A DNA stretch of 64,000 nucleotides from Cryptosporangium phraense (GTDB taxonomy: Bacteria > Actinomycetota > Actinomycetes > Mycobacteriales > Cryptosporangiaceae). The notes below the pieces were generated by a model. The model saw nothing but the letters and a program-made list of their open reading frames with translations, did no database searches and was not told where the DNA came from. Each line of letters begins with the position of its first letter. Position 1 is the first letter of the stretch. A program made the position numbers and the translations under genes. Where the stretch lies: positions 248,001 to 312,000 of the forward strand of contig NZ_VIRS01000005.1 in assembly GCF_006912135.1 (NCBI RefSeq). Reading direction: 5' to 3'. Of the stretch, positions 1,718 to 59,491 are shown piece after piece.

Positions 1718-2992
1718 TCAGACGCCGACTGGATATGTCTCCAGCTCACCTCCTACCGGGGTGGCGGGTAGGGGGCTCAGGGCGGTGGTCTCCGGGAGCC
1801 AGACGAACGCGTCGTAGCGGTCGCCGAGCCGGGTCGGGACGTAGTTGCCGTACGACTCCCTGGCCGGGTCGTAGACGACGCCGATCGCCCGGTGCGGGAG
1901 GACGTCGGTGAGCCAGGCCGGGCGCGCGCCGGTGCGACCGGGCGTGAACTCCCCCGGCCCGAACACGAACAGCGCCGGTTCGGGCAGCGTCGCCTGCAGT
2001 GTGGCCTCCAGCGATCCGGCCCGGGCCGGAGGCACCGGCATCACCTCGACCGGGGCGCCCCAGGACGGGCCGGCCAGCACCTCGCCACGGTGGCAGCCGA
2101 AGCCGACCAGCGCGACCGCGTCGCCGCCCCAGCGCTCGCGGGCCAGCTCCCCCAGGTTGGTCATCCCGTGCTCGGCCATGTCGGTGGCCCGGGCGTCGCC
2201 GACGTGGGTGTTGTGGGCCCAGACCACGGCTCTGGACTCCGGGCCGTAGAAGTCGAGCAGGCGGGCCAGCGTCTCCAGCATGTGGGTGTCCCGGCCGTTC
2301 CAGGACTCCGGGCCGTTGCCGACCATCGCCCGGTAGTACTGCTCGGCGCCGACGGCCGCCTCGGCGTTCTGCCGGGCCGCGAACGCGCCGAACGCGTCGT
2401 CCGGTGCGCCCTCGAGGGCCCGCCGGCGCACCTCGGCGAGCATCGAGGCCAGCGCCGGGGCGCAGGTGGAGCCCATCACGGTGGCCCAGGCGTAGCTCTG
2501 CGGGTCCTGCCCGTACGGGTCGAGGCAGCGGATCGCGGCCAGCGCGGGAGCGAGGCCGTCCGGGTCGTGCTCGCGGAAGTACCGCAGCACCTCGCCGAGC
2601 GACTCCCAGAGCGAGTACACGTCGAGCCCGTGGAACCCGACGGTCCGTCGGACCGCCAGCCACCGCAGGAAGTCGGCGACCTCCTCGTTGGCCCACATCC
2701 AGGTCGGCCACCGGTGGAACTGCTCGAGCGCGGCCCGCACGTCGGCACCCTCCCCGACCGCCCGGTGGACGCGGTCGCAGTCCGGCCAGTCACCCTCCAC
2801 CGCGACGAACGAGAAGCCGTGCTCGTCGACGAGCCGGCGGGTCAGGTCGGCGCGCAGCCGGTAGTCGTGGGTGCCGTGGCTGGCCTCACCCAGCATCACG
2901 ACCCGGGCGTCGCGCACCCGATCGAGCAGCGGATCGAAATCACCCGCATCGCGCAATGGCGCCGCCATCGCGTGGACGTCGTCCCCGTTCAT
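1718..2992 (-). CDS. Erythromycin esterase family protein
   Basis: The 424-residue protein belongs to the erythromycin esterase (EreA/B-like, PF05139) family. Visible family features are GEASHG at residues 35-40, an EGDWPDC segment near 66-72 that supplies acidic active-site residues, and a later AHNTHVGDAR segment with paired histidines. True Ere enzymes open the macrolide lactone ring, but most chromosomal members in soil actinomycetes have unknown substrates, so macrolide hydrolysis is only a possibility. The ATG at 2992 is preceded by GGGGAG four bases upstream. There is no signal peptide, so it is cytoplasmic. It is divergent from the DUF397 gene at 3198 across about 200 bp and convergent with the gene ending at 1713. 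Confidence 0.88.
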   Translation of the reverse strand: MNGDDVHAMAAPLRDAGDFDPLLDRVRDARVVMLGEASHGTHDYRLRADLTRRLVDEHGFSFVAVEGDWPDCDRVHRAVGEGADVRAALEQFHRWPTWMWANEEVADFLRWLAVRRTVGFHGLDVYSLWESLGEVLRYFREHDPDGLAPALAAIRCLDPYGQDPQSYAWATVMGSTCAPALASMLAEVRRRALEGAPDDAFGAFAARQNAEAAVGAEQYYRAMVGNGPESWNGRDTHMLETLARLLDFYGPESRAVVWAHNTHVGDARATDMAEHGMTNLGELARERWGGDAVALVGFGCHRGEVLAGPSWGAPVEVMPVPPARAGSLEATLQATLPEPALFVFGPGEFTPGRTGARPAWLTDVLPHRAIGVVYDPARESYGNYVPTRLGDRYDAFVWLPETTALSPLPATPVGGELETYPVGV

Positions 2993-3197
2993 CGCTCTCC
3001 CCCGATCACTCTCCGTCCGTCAGTCAAAGACGGAAAGTCAAAAAGACAGGTAACGAGTGCCCGAACCTGACGAAATCATGCTGTTTCACGCCTCAAGTCG
3101 GGAAACATACTGTCTTCAAAACGGGCTTGTGAATCACACTTTGAACCGGCGTATGCTCCGTCATTGTCCCTGTCAAGACGGAGGGCCCGGTGAATTC

Positions 3198-3413
3198 ATG
3201 AACGAGCGCGCACTTGATCTCTCGCAAGCACACTGGCGTAAAGCGACCAGAAGCACCGGTGCCAATACCGGATGCGTCGAAGTGGCCGCCAACCTGCCGG
3301 AAGTCACCGCGATTCGCGACAGCAAACGACCCGAGGGCGGCGCCCACGTCGTCAGCCGGGAGGCGTTCGCCGCATTCCTGTCCGATGTGAAGTCCGGTCG
3401 CTACACGCTTTGA
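3198..3413 (+). CDS. DUF397 domain protein
   Basis: This 71-residue protein is a single DUF397 domain. It has an N-terminal W-x-K-A-T/S-R-S segment (AHWRKATRSTGANTGCVEVA), a central RDSK sequence and the typical ending FAAFLSDVKSGRY. DUF397 proteins are actinomycete-specific small regulators, usually encoded beside XRE regulators of the WhiJ/AbaA type and thought to modulate them. The ATG at 3198 is 13-14 bases after GGAGG (3180-3184), a long spacing; no better start is present. A strong terminator follows directly. A second DUF397 gene (5355-5597) sits next to the XRE gene, so the locus has two. Confidence 0.85.
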   Translation: MNERALDLSQAHWRKATRSTGANTGCVEVAANLPEVTAIRDSKRPEGGAHVVSREAFAAFLSDVKSGRYTL

Positions 3414-3429
3414 CCGCTTTGCGTGATCG

Positions 3430-3473
3430 AACGCGGCGACGCTCCTGCCCTGAGCGTCGCCGCGTTCTCTTTT
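3430..3473 (+). terminator. Rho-independent terminator after the DUF397 gene
   Basis: A perfect 15-bp stem (3430-3444 with 3452-3466), a 7-base loop CTGCCCT and a following CTCTTTT tract, 17 bases after the stop codon of the DUF397 gene. It separates that gene from the methyltransferase downstream. Confidence 0.9.
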
Positions 3474-3547
3474 GTCTATCCAATTTGATTACTGTCCGTT
3501 GTGCTCTGTGCGAGTGACGAAAGTTTTCGGCGATCCGGCGAGGGGTG

Positions 3548-3590
3548 TTGCCCCGGACGCCAGACCTTCATAATCTGTGCTTCACAGATT
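3548..3590 (+). promoter_or_regulatory. Possible promoter with an overlapping palindromic operator
   Basis: TTGCCC (3548-3553) and TAATCT (3571-3576) are 17 bases apart and could be a -35/-10 pair for the methyltransferase at 3626. The -10 overlaps a perfect inverted repeat, AATCTGTG-CTT-CACAGATT (3572-3590), a good position for a repressor site. The nearby XRE regulator is the obvious candidate binder, but this is inference. Confidence 0.45.
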
Positions 3591-3625
3591 TGGACGCGCG
3601 GCCCGCGGAGGTGAGTCAGGTGGTC

Positions 3626-4474
3626 ATGCCCGAGACCGTCCTCCGCGCGTCACGGCCCACCACACCGGTCGAGGTCGACAGCTTCCGGCCCAACGCCGCC
3701 CGCATGTACGACTACTACCTCGGTGGCAGCAACCACCTGGCCGCCGACCGCGAGGCCGCCGACGCGCTCCTCGACGCCGTTCCCCTGGTCGCCGAGGCGG
3801 CCCGGCAGAACCGCGCGTTCCTCGGCCGGGTCGTCGAGTTCGCGCTGGGCCGGGGCATCACGCAGTTCCTCGACCTCGGGTCCGGGTACTCGTCGCCGGA
3901 GGCGGTCGCGCTGGCCGGCGGGCCGGGCGTCCGGGTGGTGGCGGTCGACATCGACCCGCGCGTCGTCAGCCAGGTGCAGCTCGACGCCCGGGTGTCCGGG
4001 CGCGGTGCGCAGGTGGGCGCGGTGCACGCCGACCTCGGCGACGCGGCCGGAGTCCTCGGACACCCGGTGACCCGCCGGCTGATCGACCTCGACCGTCCGG
4101 TGGCGATCCTCTGCCTTGCGGTCCTGCACTTCGTGCCCGGCCCGCTCGACCGCGTGCTCGGCCCGCTGCGCCGGGCCGTCGCCCCGGGCAGCCTGCTCGC
4201 TGTTTCCCACGGTGCCGCCACACCGACGTCCGCCGGTCGGACGCGTTCGGAGGGGGCGGCCCGACCGGCGGCACCCAGCCCCGCGTCCATCTCCCGGTTG
4301 ATCTACGACTGCACGCTGACGCCACTGACGCTGCGGTCCGCCCCCGACGTCCGCGCCGCCCTCGGAGACACCGAGTTGGTGGAGCCGGGCCTGGTGGAGA
4401 TCGCCTCGTGGCGGGCGCCGGAGTCGTCGTCGCCGGGCCGCTCCGGCCTGATCGGCGGCGTGGCCAGCCTCTAA
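3626..4474 (+). CDS. SAM-dependent methyltransferase, SAV2177/DUF574 family
   Basis: This 282-residue protein has the hallmarks of the actinomycete SAV2177 family (PF04672): the entry motif ARMYDYYLGGSNH, the SAM-binding loop FLDLGSGY, an acidic VAVDIDP strand end, and an ILCLAVLHFV segment. Substrates of the family are unknown. The ATG at 3626 was chosen because GGAGGTGA lies 11 bases upstream; an in-frame GTG at 3611 falls inside that ribosome binding site. Its TAA overlaps the stop of the convergent XRE gene (CTAA), so the two transcripts overlap at their 3' ends. Two relatives are in the window (5608-6429 and 47239-48033). The C-terminal part has a low-complexity insertion (around TPTSAGRTRSEGAARPAAPS). 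Confidence 0.9.
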   Translation: MPETVLRASRPTTPVEVDSFRPNAARMYDYYLGGSNHLAADREAADALLDAVPLVAEAARQNRAFLGRVVEFALGRGITQFLDLGSGYSSPEAVALAGGPGVRVVAVDIDPRVVSQVQLDARVSGRGAQVGAVHADLGDAAGVLGHPVTRRLIDLDRPVAILCLAVLHFVPGPLDRVLGPLRRAVAPGSLLAVSHGAATPTSAGRTRSEGAARPAAPSPASISRLIYDCTLTPLTLRSAPDVRAALGDTELVEPGLVEIASWRAPESSSPGRSGLIGGVASL

Positions 4475-51903: not shown

Positions 51904-53061
51904 GTGAGATTCCTGCACACGTCCGACTGGCATGTGGGCAAGGTCCTCAAGGGCCGCAACCGCCTCGACGAGCAGCGCGCCGTGCTCCGGGAGATCGTCT
52001 CGCTGGCCCGCACCCACGAGGTCGACGCGGTTCTCGTCGCCGGTGACCTCTACGACTCGGCCGCCCCCAGCGCCGAGGCGCAGGAGCTCGTCGTGCGGGC
52101 GTTGATGGCCCTGAAAGAGACCGGCGCCGAGGTCGTCGCGATCGCCGGCAACCACGACCACCCCCGCACGTTCGACGCGTACCGGCCGCTGATGAACGTC
52201 GCCGGCATCACGCTGGTCGGCAGCGTGCGCACGGCCGAGAGCGGCGGCGTCGTCTCGTTCACCGCCCCGCGCACCGGCGAGCCGGTCCGGGTCGCCGCGC
52301 TGCCGTTCCTCTCCCAGCGGCACGCGATCCGGGCCGCCGAGCTCGTCACGAAGACGCCGGCCGAGAACAGCGCGGGGTACGACCAGCTGATCCGGGAGCT
52401 CGTCGCGTCGCTCACGGCCGGGTTCGGCGACGACGCGGTCAACCTGGTCACCGCGCACCTCACGGTCACCGGCGGGGCGATGGGCGGCGGCGAGCGCGCG
52501 GCCCAGTCCATCTTCGAGTATCACGTCCCGGCCGGCGCGTTCCCGGCCGACGCGCACTACGTCGCGCTCGGTCACCTGCACCGGCGTCAGACGCTGCCCG
52601 CGGCCTGCCCGGTCGTGTACTCGGGGGCACCGATAGCGGTCGACTTCGGCGAGCAAGACAACACCGCGTCGGTCTGCCTGGTCGAGGCCACGCCGTCCAC
52701 GCCGGCCCGGGTCACCGACCTGCCGCTCACCAGCGCCAAGAAGCTCAGCACGATCACCGGCACGGTCGCCGAGCTGGCCGATCGCGCGGCCGCCCACGCC
52801 GACGACTACCTGCGGGTCTTCGTCCGCGAACCGGCCCGGGCCGGGCTGCGGGAGGAGGTCCAGGATCTGCTGCCGGGCGCGCTCGAGGTGCGCATCGATC
52901 CCGAGTTCGCGGCCCAGGTCGAGGTGAAGCGGCCGAGCGGCGGCTCCGAGCACGCGACGCCGGGCGAACTGTTCGCCGAGTTCTGCGGCGAGCGGCAGAT
53001 CGTCGACCCGCGGGTGCAGAGCCTCTTCACCCGCCTGCACGACGACGTCACCGCCGGTTAG
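51904..53061 (+). CDS. sbcD: DNA double-strand-break repair nuclease SbcD (Mre11-type)
   Basis: A 385-residue metallophosphoesterase. The nuclease motifs are LHTSDWHVGKVL, VLVAGDLYDSA, IAGNHDHPRTF, VTAHLTVTGG and ALGHLHRRQ. Together with SbcC it forms the SbcCD (Mre11-Rad50-like) complex that processes hairpins and blocked DNA ends. GTG at 51904. It is followed 11 bp later by sbcC and translated in the same unit. Confidence 0.95.
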   Translation: MRFLHTSDWHVGKVLKGRNRLDEQRAVLREIVSLARTHEVDAVLVAGDLYDSAAPSAEAQELVVRALMALKETGAEVVAIAGNHDHPRTFDAYRPLMNVAGITLVGSVRTAESGGVVSFTAPRTGEPVRVAALPFLSQRHAIRAAELVTKTPAENSAGYDQLIRELVASLTAGFGDDAVNLVTAHLTVTGGAMGGGERAAQSIFEYHVPAGAFPADAHYVALGHLHRRQTLPAACPVVYSGAPIAVDFGEQDNTASVCLVEATPSTPARVTDLPLTSAKKLSTITGTVAELADRAAAHADDYLRVFVREPARAGLREEVQDLLPGALEVRIDPEFAAQVEVKRPSGGSEHATPGELFAEFCGERQIVDPRVQSLFTRLHDDVTAG

Positions 53062-53072
53062 AGGAGGACGAG

Positions 53073-56000
53073 ATGCGGCCCGTACTCCTCGACCTCGACG
53101 GCTTCGGCTCGTTCCGCGAGCCGACCACGGTCGACTTCGCCGACGCCGACTACTTCGCGCTGGTCGGCGCCACCGGCGCGGGCAAGTCGACGGTGATCGA
53201 CGCGATCACGTTCGCGCTCTACGGCAACGTGCCCCGCTGGGACGACAAGCGCCTGGTCAAGCTCGCGTTGTCGCCGACCGCGAACCGCGGCACGGTCCGC
53301 CTGGTGTTCGACGTCGGATCGCAGCGGTACGTGGCCGTGCGCGAGATGCGTCGCACCGCCCAGGGCAACGTCAACGTCAAGAACGCCCGGCTCGAGCGGC
53401 TGGCCGACAGCACGTCGCTCGGCGACCTGGAAGACGAGTCCGACCTGGTCGCGGCCGACAACGAGGTCACCGGCGCGGTCGAGCGGATCCTCGGGCTGAC
53501 GTTCGAGCACTTCTGCACGTGCGTCGTGCTGCCGCAGGGCGACTTCGCCGAGTTCCTGCACGCCCGGGCCGGTGACCGGCAGAAGATCCTGGTCAAGCTC
53601 CTCGGCCTCGAGGTGTACGACGAGATCGCCAAGGCCGCGAACACCGAGGCCTCGCGCGAGAAACAGACCGCCGAACTCCTCACCGACCAGCTCCAGCGCT
53701 ACGGCGACGCGACCGACGAGGCCCAGCAGGCGGCCGAGGCCCGCATCGGTGCGCTGGTCGAGGCCGAGGCCCGGGTCGCCACCGCGCTCCCGACGCTGAC
53801 CGCGGCCGCCGACGAGGCCCGCAGTGCCCGGCAGACCGTCGCGCGGCTGAACCAGGAGCGCGAGCTCCTCACCGCGGTCGAGGTCCCGGCCGGTCTCGCC
53901 GATCTGGACGCCGCCCTGCGCACCGCCCGGGACGCGTCGGGCCGGGCCGCCACCGTGCTGGCCGAGGCCGAGACCGCCGACTCGGCCGCCCGCGCCGCGC
54001 TGGCCGCGGCCCCGGCCCGGGGTCCGCTGGAGGCCGCCCGCCGGGCCCGCCGGGAGCTCGACGCGCTGGCCGCCGCCCGCCCCGGGCTGCTCACCGCCCA
54101 GTCCACCGCGGCCACCCGCCTCGCCCAGGCCGACCAGCAGGTCGCCGCGGCCGACCAGGTCGTCGAGCAGGCCCGGGCGGCCCAGCTGGCCGCCGCGGCC
54201 GCGGCCGAGAGCGCCCGCGAGACCGTCGCCCGGCTGACCCGCGAACGCGACCGGCTGACCGCGGTCGAGGCCCCGCCCGGCCTCGCCGAGCTCGACACCC
54301 GCCTGCGGTCGGCGCGCGAGGCGTCGGCCCGGGCCGCGTCCGCCCACGCCGAGGCCGAGTCGGCCGACTCGGCCGCCCGCGCCGCGGTGGCGGCGGCCCC
54401 GGCCCGCGGCCCGGTCGAGTCCGCGCGCCACGCGCGCCGGGAACTCGATCGGCTGATCGAGGGCCGCCCGGCCCTGCACCAGCACCAGGCCGACGCCGAG
54501 CGGCGCCGTACCGAGGCCGAGGACGCCGTCCGGCGGGCCCAGGAGGCGCTCGAAGCCGCCCGGGCCGCGCGCGAGGCCGGGGCCCGGCACCGCACGGCCG
54601 CGAACCTGCGTCCACACCTGGTCGCGGGTGAGCCGTGCCCGGTGTGCGAGCAGTCGGTCGCGACGTTGCCGCCGCCGCTCGCGGAGGAGGGCGGGGTCGC
54701 CGAGGCCGAGGCCGCGGTCCGGGAGGCGCAGCGGGCCGCCGATGCGGCGTCGGCCGACCGGTCGGCGGCCGCGGCCGCCGCGTCGGCCGCCGAGAGCGCG
54801 CTGGCCACCGCCGACGCGCAGGCGCTGGCCCTGCAGACCACGCTGGCCGACGAGAAGCTGCGGACCACGATCCACGGCGACGGCGCCGCGGCCGTCGAGA
54901 TCCTCACTCTGGACGACCTCGACCGCTGGCTCGCCGCCCGGGACGCCCTGGACGTGGCCGCGCGGGCCGCCGACGCCGAGCTGGTCGCCGCCCGGGCGGC
55001 CCGGGCCGACGCCGAGCGCGACGTGGCCAAGGTCGGCGCCGAGGCGACCGGGGTGCGGACGGCGCTGCGCGAAGCCCGGGACGGGCTGGCGCCGTTCGGG
55101 GCGCCCGGCAGCCTGATCGACGACGTCGACGACGTCGCCGCGGGCTGGGCGGCGCTGGCCACCTGGGCGGCGTCCGCGGCGGGTGAGCGCGAGGCCGCTC
55201 TGACCGGGGTGTCGAAAGAGTCCGGGGCGGCCGACACGGCCCGGGTCACCGCCGAGCGGACGTTGGCCGAGGCGTCCGAGCGGCTCGCCGCGGCCCGGAA
55301 GGCACACACCGACGCGTCCCGGGCCGAGCAGCGCGCGGCGGCGGATCTCGCGGCGGCCGACCGGTCGGCGGCCGCGCTCACCGAGCAGCTCGGCGACGCC
55401 CCCGACGCGGAGACCCTGGCCGCGACGCTGGCCGAGCTGGACGCGCTCGACCGCACGGCCCGCGAGGCCGACGGGAAGCTCCGGGCCGCCCGTACCGCGC
55501 TGGGCGCCGCCCAGCGGGCCGAGAAAGAGGCGTACGAGCAGGTCGCCACTACCGTGCGGGGCCTGATCGCGATCCGCGAGCCGCTCGTGCCGCTGGGCGC
55601 GCCGGCGATCCCGTCCGACGACCCGGTAGGCGGGTGGCGGGCCTTCGCCGAGTGGGCGCTGGCCGCCGCCGACGCCCGCACCGACCAGCTCGAGGCCGCC
55701 GCCGCCGCGGTCAGCGCCGCCGACAGCGCGCTGACCGAACGCGAACACGCCCTGCGCACGCTCCTGACCGATCTCGCCATCGAACTCCCGCCCGGGGCGG
55801 CCACGCCCTGGGCCGGCGCGGCCGGCCCGAGCGCGGCCGGCGCGGGCGGCGCGGGCGGCGCGGGCGCGCGGCCGCTCGCCGAGATCGCGCCGGCGGCGGT
55901 GGCGAGCGCGCTCGCGGAAGCGCGCGGAGTCGAGCGGCGGATCTCCGAGCGGCGCCGCGAATCCGCCGAGCTGGTCGAACGGCGCGACGCCGCCGAGGCC

Positions 56001-56513
56001 GCTCAGCTCGTCGCCCGGCAGCTCGGGCAGCTGCTGCGGTCGGACGCGTTCCCGCGCTGGCTGGTCGCCTCGGCCCTCGACCTGCTCGTCGCCGAGGCGT
56101 CGGCGACCCTCGACGACCTCTCCGGAGGCCAGTTCGCGCTCACCCACGAGGCCGGCGAGTTCGTCATCGTCGACCACGCCGACGCCGACAGCCGCCGCCC
56201 GGTGAAGACGCTCTCCGGCGGCGAGACGTTCCAGGCCAGCCTGGCCCTGGCGCTCGCGCTGAGCGCCCACGTCAGCACGATGGCCGCGTCCGGCGCCGCC
56301 CGGCTCGACTCGATCTTCCTCGACGAGGGCTTCGGCACGCTCGACGAGGCGACGCTCGAGGTCGTCGCGGCCACGCTGGAGAACCTGGCCGCCGGCGGCG
56401 ACCGCATGGTCGGGCTGGTCACGCACGTGGCCGCGCTGGCCGAGCGGGTCCCGGTACGGTTCGAGGTCAGCCGCGACCAGCGCACGTCGACGGTCACGAA
56501 GGTGGTGCAATGA
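53073..56513 (+). CDS. sbcC: DNA repair ATPase SbcC (Rad50-type)
   Basis: A 1146-residue SMC-like ATPase. The N-terminal half has Walker A GATGAGKST (about residues 33-41). The central zinc hook is CPVC (in GEPCPVCEQSV, codons near 54636-54660). The C-terminal half has the ABC signature VKTLSGGETFQASLALALAL and Walker B IFLDEGFGTLDEATLE. Both arms of the Ala-rich coiled coil contain internal repeats (see repeat entries). ATG at 53073; the stop overlaps the next gene by ATGA. It is the partner of SbcD. Confidence 0.95.
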   Translation: MRPVLLDLDGFGSFREPTTVDFADADYFALVGATGAGKSTVIDAITFALYGNVPRWDDKRLVKLALSPTANRGTVRLVFDVGSQRYVAVREMRRTAQGNVNVKNARLERLADSTSLGDLEDESDLVAADNEVTGAVERILGLTFEHFCTCVVLPQGDFAEFLHARAGDRQKILVKLLGLEVYDEIAKAANTEASREKQTAELLTDQLQRYGDATDEAQQAAEARIGALVEAEARVATALPTLTAAADEARSARQTVARLNQERELLTAVEVPAGLADLDAALRTARDASGRAATVLAEAETADSAARAALAAAPARGPLEAARRARRELDALAAARPGLLTAQSTAATRLAQADQQVAAADQVVEQARAAQLAAAAAAESARETVARLTRERDRLTAVEAPPGLAELDTRLRSAREASARAASAHAEAESADSAARAAVAAAPARGPVESARHARRELDRLIEGRPALHQHQADAERRRTEAEDAVRRAQEALEAARAAREAGARHRTAANLRPHLVAGEPCPVCEQSVATLPPPLAEEGGVAEAEAAVREAQRAADAASADRSAAAAAASAAESALATADAQALALQTTLADEKLRTTIHGDGAAAVEILTLDDLDRWLAARDALDVAARAADAELVAARAARADAERDVAKVGAEATGVRTALREARDGLAPFGAPGSLIDDVDDVAAGWAALATWAASAAGEREAALTGVSKESGAADTARVTAERTLAEASERLAAARKAHTDASRAEQRAAADLAAADRSAAALTEQLGDAPDAETLAATLAELDALDRTAREADGKLRAARTALGAAQRAEKEAYEQVATTVRGLIAIREPLVPLGAPAIPSDDPVGGWRAFAEWALAAADARTDQLEAAAAAVSAADSALTEREHALRTLLTDLAIELPPGAATPWAGAAGPSAAGAGGAGGAGARPLAEIAPAAVASALAEARGVERRISERRRESAELVERRDAAEAAQLVARQLGQLLRSDAFPRWLVASALDLLVAEASATLDDLSGGQFALTHEAGEFVIVDHADADSRRPVKTLSGGETFQASLALALALSAHVSTMAASGAARLDSIFLDEGFGTLDEATLEVVAATLENLAAGGDRMVGLVTHVAALAERVPVRFEVSRDQRTSTVTKVVQ
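53834..54607 (+). repeat. 387-bp tandem duplication in the N-terminal coiled-coil arm of SbcC
   Basis: Segment one starts near 53834 (TVARLNQERELLTAVEVPAG...) and segment two near 54221 (TVARLTRERDRLTAVEAPPG...), a period of 387 bp or 129 codons. The similarity extends through SADSAARAA-AAAPARGP-E-AR-ARREL in both copies. Segment two ends just before the CPVC zinc hook. Confidence 0.85.
55060..55790 (+). repeat. Diverged duplication in the C-terminal coiled-coil arm of SbcC
   Basis: Two related segments are seen: GLAPFGAPGS...GWAALATWAASAAGERE (from about 55090) and PLVPLGAPAI...GWRAFAEWALAAADART (from about 55588), offset by about 498 bp (166 codons). The matching is weaker than in the N-terminal arm, so this is an older duplication. 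Confidence 0.65.
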
Positions 56514-57454
56514 GATTCAGCGTCGACGCCTGGGATCCGGGCTACGGCACCAGCACGGAGGACGACGCCGCCCGCACCAAGTCGAGCGCCCGCGTCGAGC
56601 TCGACGTCGAGCGCGACCCCGGTGACTGGAAGCCGATCGAGCCCCGCCCGGTCGCGCTGCCGTCCGCGGTCCTGTTCGTCGACGGCGTCCGGCGCATCGA
56701 CGCCCAGCTCTGGGTCCACGCGGGCGCGGGCACCAGCGCCTCGCTGGCGATCTGCGCGTCGTACGCGGCCGGCGTCGTCTGCTGCACCGCGAACGGGGCC
56801 ACGGTCCCGACCGTCGCCGTCCGCCGCGGGGTCTTCACCGCCGCCGACGACGCCTCCCCGGTCACGACGAACGCCGGCACCTACGCGCTGTACAAGGTCA
56901 AGCAGGACGACCCGGACGCGCTGTCGCTGGGCCTGCAGCGCCAGCTCGCCGACGTCGAGCTCGAAGCGGCCAGGCGCGCCCGCGAGAGCCTGGACGACGA
57001 CCAGGACCTGCTCGTCCTCGACGGCCCGCTGAAGGGCCGCCAGCACCTCCCCCGCGCGATCGGGTTCATCAAGACCCACCGGGCCGAGTACCTCCCGGCC
57101 CAGCTCAACGGCGTCGTGGCCCGGCTCGACCCGGCCCACCGGTCGCCGGTGTTCCGGATGGGCACGTCCTGGGACCGCTACGCCTGGTACCTGCGGCTCC
57201 CGGGCGGGGCCGGTGCCCCGTGGGCCGGCGTGGTCCGGGTCGAGTGCGCGTCCGACCTGACCGCGAGCGAGGCGGTCGCGCTGGCCAACCTCAGCCAGGA
57301 GACGCTCTGCCGGTACGCGTCGGTCGAGTTCAAGGACTCCCGCGCCCCGCAGAACCTGTTCCCGATCGCGGGCCTCGAGCGGGCGCTCCGCCGCCGGCTC
57401 GGCGACCCGGCGCTGCTCTACCGCGCGCTGCGAACGGCCGCTTCTGCCCGATAG
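56510..57454 (+). CDS. NurA-like nuclease-domain protein downstream of SbcCD
   Basis: A 314-residue protein resembling the NurA 5'-3' nuclease fold. An early acidic strand, LFVDGVRRIDAQLWV, fits the first conserved Asp. A later LLVLDGPLKGR plus AIGFIKTHRAEYLP fits the second conserved region (DGPL then GxxKxH). FRMGTSWDRYAWYLRL and a conserved C-terminal VEFKDSRAPQNLFPIAGLE follow. In archaea NurA works with HerA and Mre11-Rad50 on DNA ends; here the gene's ATG overlaps the SbcC stop (ATGA), so it is part of the same unit. No HerA-type ATPase is present. Assignment is by pattern only. Confidence 0.6.
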   Translation: MRFSVDAWDPGYGTSTEDDAARTKSSARVELDVERDPGDWKPIEPRPVALPSAVLFVDGVRRIDAQLWVHAGAGTSASLAICASYAAGVVCCTANGATVPTVAVRRGVFTAADDASPVTTNAGTYALYKVKQDDPDALSLGLQRQLADVELEAARRARESLDDDQDLLVLDGPLKGRQHLPRAIGFIKTHRAEYLPAQLNGVVARLDPAHRSPVFRMGTSWDRYAWYLRLPGGAGAPWAGVVRVECASDLTASEAVALANLSQETLCRYASVEFKDSRAPQNLFPIAGLERALRRRLGDPALLYRALRTAASAR

Positions 57455-59125: not shown

Positions 59126-59491
59126 GTGCCGACGTTCCGCGTGACGCGTTACGTGCTGTCTTACGGCGCGGTCAAGACCGCCGGTGAGCGGCCGTTCCCC
59201 TGGCACTCGATCATCCTCGTCTTCGATCCGGACGGACGTCCGCCGGTGAGCGACGCGGTGGTCCTGTTCACGCCGAGCAACAGCCTCGGCAACCTGAACA
59301 CCCCGAACCGGCTCACCGCATATCTGCCGGTCGAGGACTTCGACACGTATCACCGGATCCTGCAGACCGAGAGCCCGGTCTTCGCCGAGTGGACCGAGGA
59401 CAACGGCGGCCGGCTCACCAGCTTCTACCTGAAGACCCAGGAGGAGCCGGTCGGTGAGGGCCCGGTGGACCGCAGCGAGGGCTACACCTGA
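59126..59491 (+). CDS. Small hypothetical protein
   Basis: A 121-residue soluble protein with a mixed strand/helix pattern (FRVTRYVLSYGAVKTAGERP, IILVFDPDG, AVVLFTPSNSLGNLN) and an acidic C-terminus. I do not recognise the family. GTG at 59126 has no strong ribosome binding site; it lies 53 bp after the kinase gene in the same direction and may share its transcript. It overlaps the convergent enoyl-CoA hydratase gene by 10 bp. Confidence 0.6.
   Translation: MPTFRVTRYVLSYGAVKTAGERPFPWHSIILVFDPDGRPPVSDAVVLFTPSNSLGNLNTPNRLTAYLPVEDFDTYHRILQTESPVFAEWTEDNGGRLTSFYLKTQEEPVGEGPVDRSEGYT

Follow-up and report, generated by a model that had tools for sequence, protein, structure and literature searches.

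The proteins HerA and NurA are best known from archaea, where herA, mre11, rad50 and nurA form a classical operon for which a common role in 5'-end resection has been proposed (PMC4351679, PMC2288612). In Sulfolobus islandicus the four genes of this operon are reported to be essential (PMC4351679). For bacteria, one review mentions NurA and HerA homologues in Actinobacteria and names Deinococcus as the only bacterium in which the two proteins have been studied (PMC8708640). HerA of Thermus has been studied with deletion mutants, and in Oceanithermus profundus sbcD and sbcC lie downstream of the HerA homologue hepA (PMC5448004). Archaeal and bacterial NurA-HerA proteins share less than 20% identity (PMC9960219). 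The present work concerns a stretch of 64,000 nucleotides from the actinomycete Cryptosporangium phraense (NZ_VIRS01000005.1, positions 248,001 to 312,000; the whole of it is called the window), in which sbcD, sbcC and nurA follow each other on the plus strand. It is highly probable that these genes belong to a four-gene actinobacterial set for DNA-end processing, the fourth member of which, herA, is located elsewhere in the genome. The same four protein families are gathered in one cluster in archaea, and the set is, by homology, the bacterial counterpart of the herA-mre11-rad50-nurA operon.

The third gene (positions 56510-57454, plus strand) encodes a protein of 314 residues, which the preliminary description of this DNA had assigned to NurA on the basis of two acidic regions. 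In a phmmer search against Protein Data Bank sequences, residues 20-310 of this protein matched NurA of Deinococcus radiodurans (DrNurA, chain 7f6d_H) with an E-value of 1.1e-18, revealing homology to a characterised NurA across the whole protein. An AlphaFold2 model built with 35 sequences (mean pLDDT 89.3, pTM 0.88) adopted the RNase H-like NurA fold, and its top Foldseek match was DrNurA again (7f6d_G, E 4.0e-19), with further matches to Thermotoga TM1739 (1zup, E 1.4e-13) and Sulfolobus NurA (2ygk, E 1.8e-6). Residues D53, K201 and R309 of DrNurA have been reported as essential for cleavage (PMC9960219, PMC4663267). Their counterparts in the phmmer alignment are D58, K188 and R278 of the window protein, a mapping counted by hand with a 20-residue chain offset in which the residue type fits at all ten positions compared, and the three residues were invariant in all 126 rows of an alignment of the window protein with 125 relatives of at least 270 residues. 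The window protein did not reach the curated cut-off of the Pfam NurA family PF09376 (12.4 bits against 21), which is a threshold of the database and not a property of the protein; of two relatives from loci in which nurA precedes herA (the nurA-first group, see below), one scored 21.1 bits and the other gave no NurA match. The comparison with NurA profiles and structures proposed earlier thus failed for the Pfam profile and succeeded for phmmer and Foldseek, both of which led to DrNurA. According to its sequence and predicted fold, the product of the third gene is a true NurA of the bacterial type, and the original assignment now rests on a match to a characterised enzyme, a predicted fold and conserved essential residues.

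The operon had also been described as one without HerA. A search profile based on seven HerA sequences from nurA-first loci nevertheless detected a full-length HerA on another contig of the same genome (G000:C61:1105-2838, E 1.2e-183). Phmmer aligned this protein with residues 2-548 of the Deinococcus enzyme (DrHerA, chain 7f6d_B) in two stretches, with an E-value of 4.2e-139. It comprises a HAS-barrel and a RecA-like ATPase domain with Walker A and B residues, and the Walker A stretch SGVATKTS is common to both proteins. Residues K175, T176, D220, D487 and E488 of DrHerA, to which roles in the ATPase have been assigned (PMC9960219, PMC4663267), are all conserved in the alignment. In the nurA-first loci, the gene between nurA and sbcD also encodes a HerA, as judged from a phmmer match of one of them to 7f6d_B (locus L074, E 2.2e-118) and from tblastn, which found HerA in 20 of 20 such loci. 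At the thresholds applied, general domain models performed poorly on these proteins: Pfam at E 0.1 gave no HerA match for five genes tested from nurA-first loci, a PF01935 (DUF87) search of the Cryptosporangium genome did not list the C61 HerA, and NCBIfam returned no match for two Deinococcus-type HerAs tested, the C61 protein included. As the seven-HerA profile found the C61 protein, the missing PF01935 match was rejected as evidence for a HerA-free genome. Surveys that rely on Pfam or NCBIfam models would miss this group, under-report bacterial HerA and so give rise to HerA-free readings.

Two surveys, one of the Cryptosporangium genome and its relatives (61 genomes) and one of the phylum (396 genomes), addressed the distribution of both proteins. 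NurA of the window type was present in 12 of the 61 genomes, own genome included, although one of these was a weak, broken match (G028, E 1.8e-5, one internal stop) that was dropped from the count; the same 11 genomes with full-length NurA also had a strong HerA match. In the phylum, NurA was found in 74 of 396 genomes. Matches to the HerA profile at E<=0.001 occurred in 146 of them, and only the 76 with E<1e-50 were counted as strong (weakest counted 1.6e-59, next below 9.3e-31), the weaker ones being partial and in many cases what is expected for FtsK-like ATPases. These 76 genomes comprised all 74 with NurA plus G128 and G265, a co-occurrence with a Fisher p of 8e-79, not corrected for kinship. 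Since HerA is encoded in the same genome, the proposal of a parallel resection module is not supported, and at the genome level, as far as sequences can tell, a module free of HerA is refuted. In many actinomycetes the NurA-HerA-SbcCD genes, best known from archaea, are passed on together as a tight set; the set itself is of a known kind, and the tight co-inheritance of NurA and HerA in Actinomycetota is the useful part.

To describe gene order we used 127 loci with flanks: 40 at NurA places of the phylum survey, which cover 40 of its 74 NurA genomes, 80 from a scan of public genomes (the best 80 of 460 confirmed stretches, a sample biased towards the window's type) and 7 retrieved by position. 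Not all of these loci are independent genomes. The order herA-sbcD-sbcC-nurA was found in 75 of the 127, and nurA-herA-sbcD-sbcC in 20, which form a deeper group; the four genes are thus clustered in 95 loci, including two sister species of C. phraense. The remaining orders were sbcD-sbcC-nurA (17), sbcC-nurA (10), nurA alone (2), nurA-herA (1), herA alone (1, the C61 contig) and herA-sbcD-sbcC (1, cut by a contig end), and some of the incomplete ones stem from short loci or contig ends. In the 102 loci with an sbcC traceable ahead of nurA, the gap was at most 60 bp in 91 cases and exceeded 1 kb in 5, and 72 of the 102 offer a start codon for nurA at a 4-bp overlap with the sbcC stop, its use being not proven. 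Given these two counts, the sbcC-nurA junction is, at the sequence level, more than chance. In a NurA tree of 126 rows, obtained by a quick method and midpoint-rooted for drawing only, 21 nurA-first sequences and the 105 others separated on one branch with an SH-aLRT support of 99, which implies that nurA moved rarely, perhaps once. The expectation that relatives would keep nurA behind sbcC therefore held for the 102 loci, mostly with nurA directly downstream, and failed for the 20 in which nurA precedes herA. Records carrying the set include Pseudonocardia, Amycolatopsis, Micromonospora, Dactylosporangium, Kineosporia, Nonomuraea and others. No report of the actinobacterial order herA-sbcD-sbcC-nurA was found in titles and abstract starts of the open-access literature, most subscription papers being outside that search.

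In C. phraense all four genes are present in one genome but not in one cluster, herA being on C61. In its sister species, herA lies ~1.0 kb (G002) and ~1.2 kb (G001) upstream of sbcD, each time with the linkage on a single contig; in a third sister (G003) it lies ~2.1 kb upstream, the contig ends inside sbcC, and nurA is on another contig. The C. phraense herA and the gene preceding it on C61 are syntenic with all three sisters and represent a displaced piece; ahead of its sbcD, C. phraense has IclR and decarboxylase genes without counterparts in the stretches of the sisters. The simplest reading of these arrangements is that a rearrangement broke the herA-sbcD linkage; apparently, nothing but this linkage was lost in the species. 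Many short repeats translating to runs of GRGDNH and GRGVNHWG occupy the herA-sbcD interval of G003 (L180, ~2171-4233). Judged from the sequences, the interval between herA and sbcD is variable within the genus. Elsewhere, 10 of the 17 sbcD-sbcC-nurA loci, which have no herA within reach, were checked genome-wide, and HerA was found elsewhere in the genome in 8; two loci with linked herA, included in the same check, were both positive. In three more of the 17 (G109, G132 and G280), the coordinates of the phylum survey place herA ~8 to 18 kb away. One Pseudonocardia metagenome-assembled genome (G454, locus L134) carries two HerA copies, on C116 and C65 (E 2.2e-184 and 1.7e-155).

Some observations weigh against a four-gene set with a HerA that docks as in Deinococcus. 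The C. phraense genome is a draft of 87 contigs, and it is the assembly that places herA apart from sbcD. Two of the 10 checked loci with detached herA gave no HerA at E 1e-20, both in draft metagenome-assembled genomes; the HerA match of G170 is split into three pieces, each in a different frame from the next, and contig ends truncate those of G298 and G370. The contact surface differs as well. In Deinococcus the NurA-HerA contact is ionic, with D78, E80 and D81 of HerA facing basic NurA motifs (PMC9960219). All 90 aligned HerAs retain D78; in the window's group, the position of E80 is Phe in 67 of 69 and that of D81 is Leu in 61 of 69, and the basic motif-3 of NurA is partly changed. With the acidic patch and motif-3 only partly kept, the docking surface cannot, on sequence grounds, be assumed identical to that of Deinococcus.

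Within the nurA-first group, where Arg occupies the D81 position in 14 of 21 HerAs, the changes on both sides are paired to some extent. NurAs with Glu at the position of K303 were accompanied by HerAs with Arg at D81 in 7 of 7 pairs, compared to 1 of 8 for NurAs with Arg or Lys at K303 (Fisher p 0.0014, not corrected for kinship; the other 6 of the 21 nurA-first pairs are left out of this comparison). In the window's group, Glu at K303 went with Leu at D81 in 4 of 5 and with Arg in 1 of 5 among the pairs listed. Such a pattern is only suggestive of a NurA-HerA contact that has changed and been maintained in one of the groups.

With regard to the closest described systems, the Deinococcus pair (7f6d; PMC9960219) and that of C. 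phraense have homologous NurA and HerA proteins, the NurA fold, the essential NurA residues and the HerA Walker A stretch in common; they differ in that nurA is here coupled to sbcC, herA is unlinked, and the ionic interface residues are partly replaced. The Oceanithermus cluster associates SbcCD genes with a HerA homologue as the 20 nurA-herA-sbcD-sbcC loci do, whereas in the window's group nurA follows sbcC, and herA precedes sbcD or lies elsewhere. If the C. phraense proteins act as the favoured explanation proposes, SbcCD (Mre11-Rad50-like) would bind, recognise and trim DNA ends that are blocked or form hairpins; NurA, as a dimeric nuclease of RNase H fold, would dock on the HerA hexamer; HerA would translocate on the duplex, pumping it into NurA; and NurA would degrade the 5' strand, leaving a 3' tail that recombination can use. 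That these proteins act as nucleases and translocase, that NurA and HerA form a complex and that the steps follow in this order is carried over from work on Deinococcus and archaea, while gene order, homology, essential residues, predicted fold, a HerA in the same genome, co-occurrence and linkage in sister species were obtained here.

The C. phraense genome additionally contains two adjacent UvrD-helicase/PD-(D/E)XK genes, which we take to be an AdnAB-like pair, and for this reason NurA-HerA does not seem to replace an absent enzyme of the RecBCD type. Deinococcus-Thermus, in contrast, is described as being without RecBCD and AddAB (PMC9960219). The family PF12705, found in 357 of the 396 phylum genomes, was rejected as a marker of AdnAB because it also occurs in other nucleases, and no conclusion on co-occurrence was drawn from it. 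Actinomycetes would offer other hosts in which to ask what bacterial NurA-HerA does and whether it acts with Mre11-Rad50-type proteins.

How closely the four proteins work together allows several explanations. They may constitute one physical machine, with NurA-HerA loaded by or docked on SbcCD and the nurA-sbcC coupling reflecting direct contact and co-regulation. The nurA-sbcC linkage, which is stable in the window's group, the clustering of all four genes in archaea and in 95 of the 127 loci, and the binding of Mre11 to HerA in Sulfolobus acidocaldarius (PMC2288612) speak for this explanation, but gene coupling is no evidence of contact and the deeper clade keeps nurA beside herA instead, so we regard it as possible though doubtful. 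A stronger version, in which NurA was re-wired to SbcCD in Actinomycetota through a partly hydrophobic docking surface (HerA D-x-E-D to D-x-F-L) and lock-step synthesis, yielding an SbcCD-NurA-HerA end-resection holoenzyme beside the AdnAB-like enzyme, is rather unlikely; NurA made in lock-step with SbcC would then take the SbcCD-processed end directly. The model of the preliminary description went further in making NurA the partner of SbcCD alone, in a HerA-independent parallel resection module. It could draw on the position of nurA after sbcC and not after herA in most loci examined, on the altered docking residues of the DrHerA type, and on the K303/D81 changes of the window's group, which do not pair simply (4 Leu and 1 Arg in 5 among the pairs listed). 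We consider it highly improbable, since it has to face a HerA with intact ATPase residues in the same genome, a HerA in 74 of 74 NurA genomes, linked herA in two sister species and, in the nurA-first loci, the pairing of 7/7 against 1/8 that is expected if NurA and HerA have stayed in contact.

An anti-phage or plasmid-defence module, as opposed to housekeeping repair, is suggested by the patchy distribution in the phylum (74 of 396 genomes) and by the fifth fold match of the NurA model, the HerA/NurA-like pair TdpAB (8wfd, Foldseek E 1.3e-4), presumably a defence system. That relative shares the NurA fold but is much more distant (14% identity), and nothing similar to its context was seen at the window operon. 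Moreover, PADLOC gave no match for NurA at E 0.01, gene order has stayed stable between distantly related bacteria as well as inside the genus of C. phraense, and SbcCD is a repair nuclease. A defence role therefore seems very unlikely to us, and the four-gene end-processing set remains the favoured explanation.

The operon itself has the layout first described for it, with frames exactly at the positions given then. The sbcD gene (51904-53061, plus strand, stop TAG) encodes the Mre11-like metallophosphoesterase nuclease subunit, scoring 182.6 bits on TIGR00619 (cut-off 77.65), with the Pfam domains Metallophos and SbcD_C and the motifs DWH, GDLY, GNHD and GHLH. After an 11-bp gap (53062-53072) with a ribosome-binding-type AGGAGG at 53062-53067, sbcC (53073-56513, plus strand) encodes a Rad50-like ATPase of 1146 residues; its 241 bits on TIGR00618 are below the cut-off of 478.5, and it contains AAA_23, SbcC_Walker_B and the ATPase, signature and CxxC motifs (GATGAGKS, LSGGE, FLDEGF and the zinc hook CPVC). 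We presume these motif patterns to be diagnostic of SbcD and SbcC, and the two proteins carry, respectively, the phosphoesterase motifs and the ATPase, signature and hook motifs of an SbcCD pair. A tandem duplication within sbcC (53802-54488, plus strand; period 387 nt, or 129 residues; copies 76% alike in DNA) falls in the expected coiled-coil part and also occurs in SbcC of the sister species G002. The sbcC stop TGA and the nurA start ATG overlap by 4 bp (ATGA, 56510-56513, plus strand), which is consistent with translational coupling of the two genes and probably helps to fix the NurA:SbcC ratio; by itself the overlap is no demonstration that NurA and SbcC bind each other.

Outside the window, a region of another contig (G000:C5 ~35-41 kb, L010:1031-7051) contains genes for a caspase-domain protein, for a 473-residue product that weakly matches a zinc ribbon, for a TdpA/HerA-like ATPase and for a divergent D12 adenine methyltransferase, and is likely a defence island. 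The 473-residue product appeared NurA-like by eye only (AVDGSP, LDGPL), and Pfam and phmmer against the Protein Data Bank gave no support for NurA. The adjacent ATPase (L002/L010), whose own neighbours are the D12 methyltransferase, the caspase-like gene and the gene with the weak zinc-ribbon match, was rejected as the partner HerA, being better matched by TdpA (E 2.7e-12) than by HerA 4d2i (E 2.7e-4). The top PF01935 matches in the genome were L002, as a divergent ATPase of defence type, and L003 and L004, which are other translocase-like ATPases.

In the window, EAL, thiamine-pyrophosphate-enzyme and IclR genes lie 5' of the operon and a GAF histidine kinase gene 3' of it. Further downstream, positions 59126-59491 encode a protein of 121 residues that has no Pfam match and shares 98% identity with the homologue from each of the three sister species. 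The nurA, histidine kinase, ECH and ABC-F neighbours show 69-86% identity over aligned segments in the same comparison, and given this difference the 121-residue protein is, by its sequence, apparently under strong constraint.

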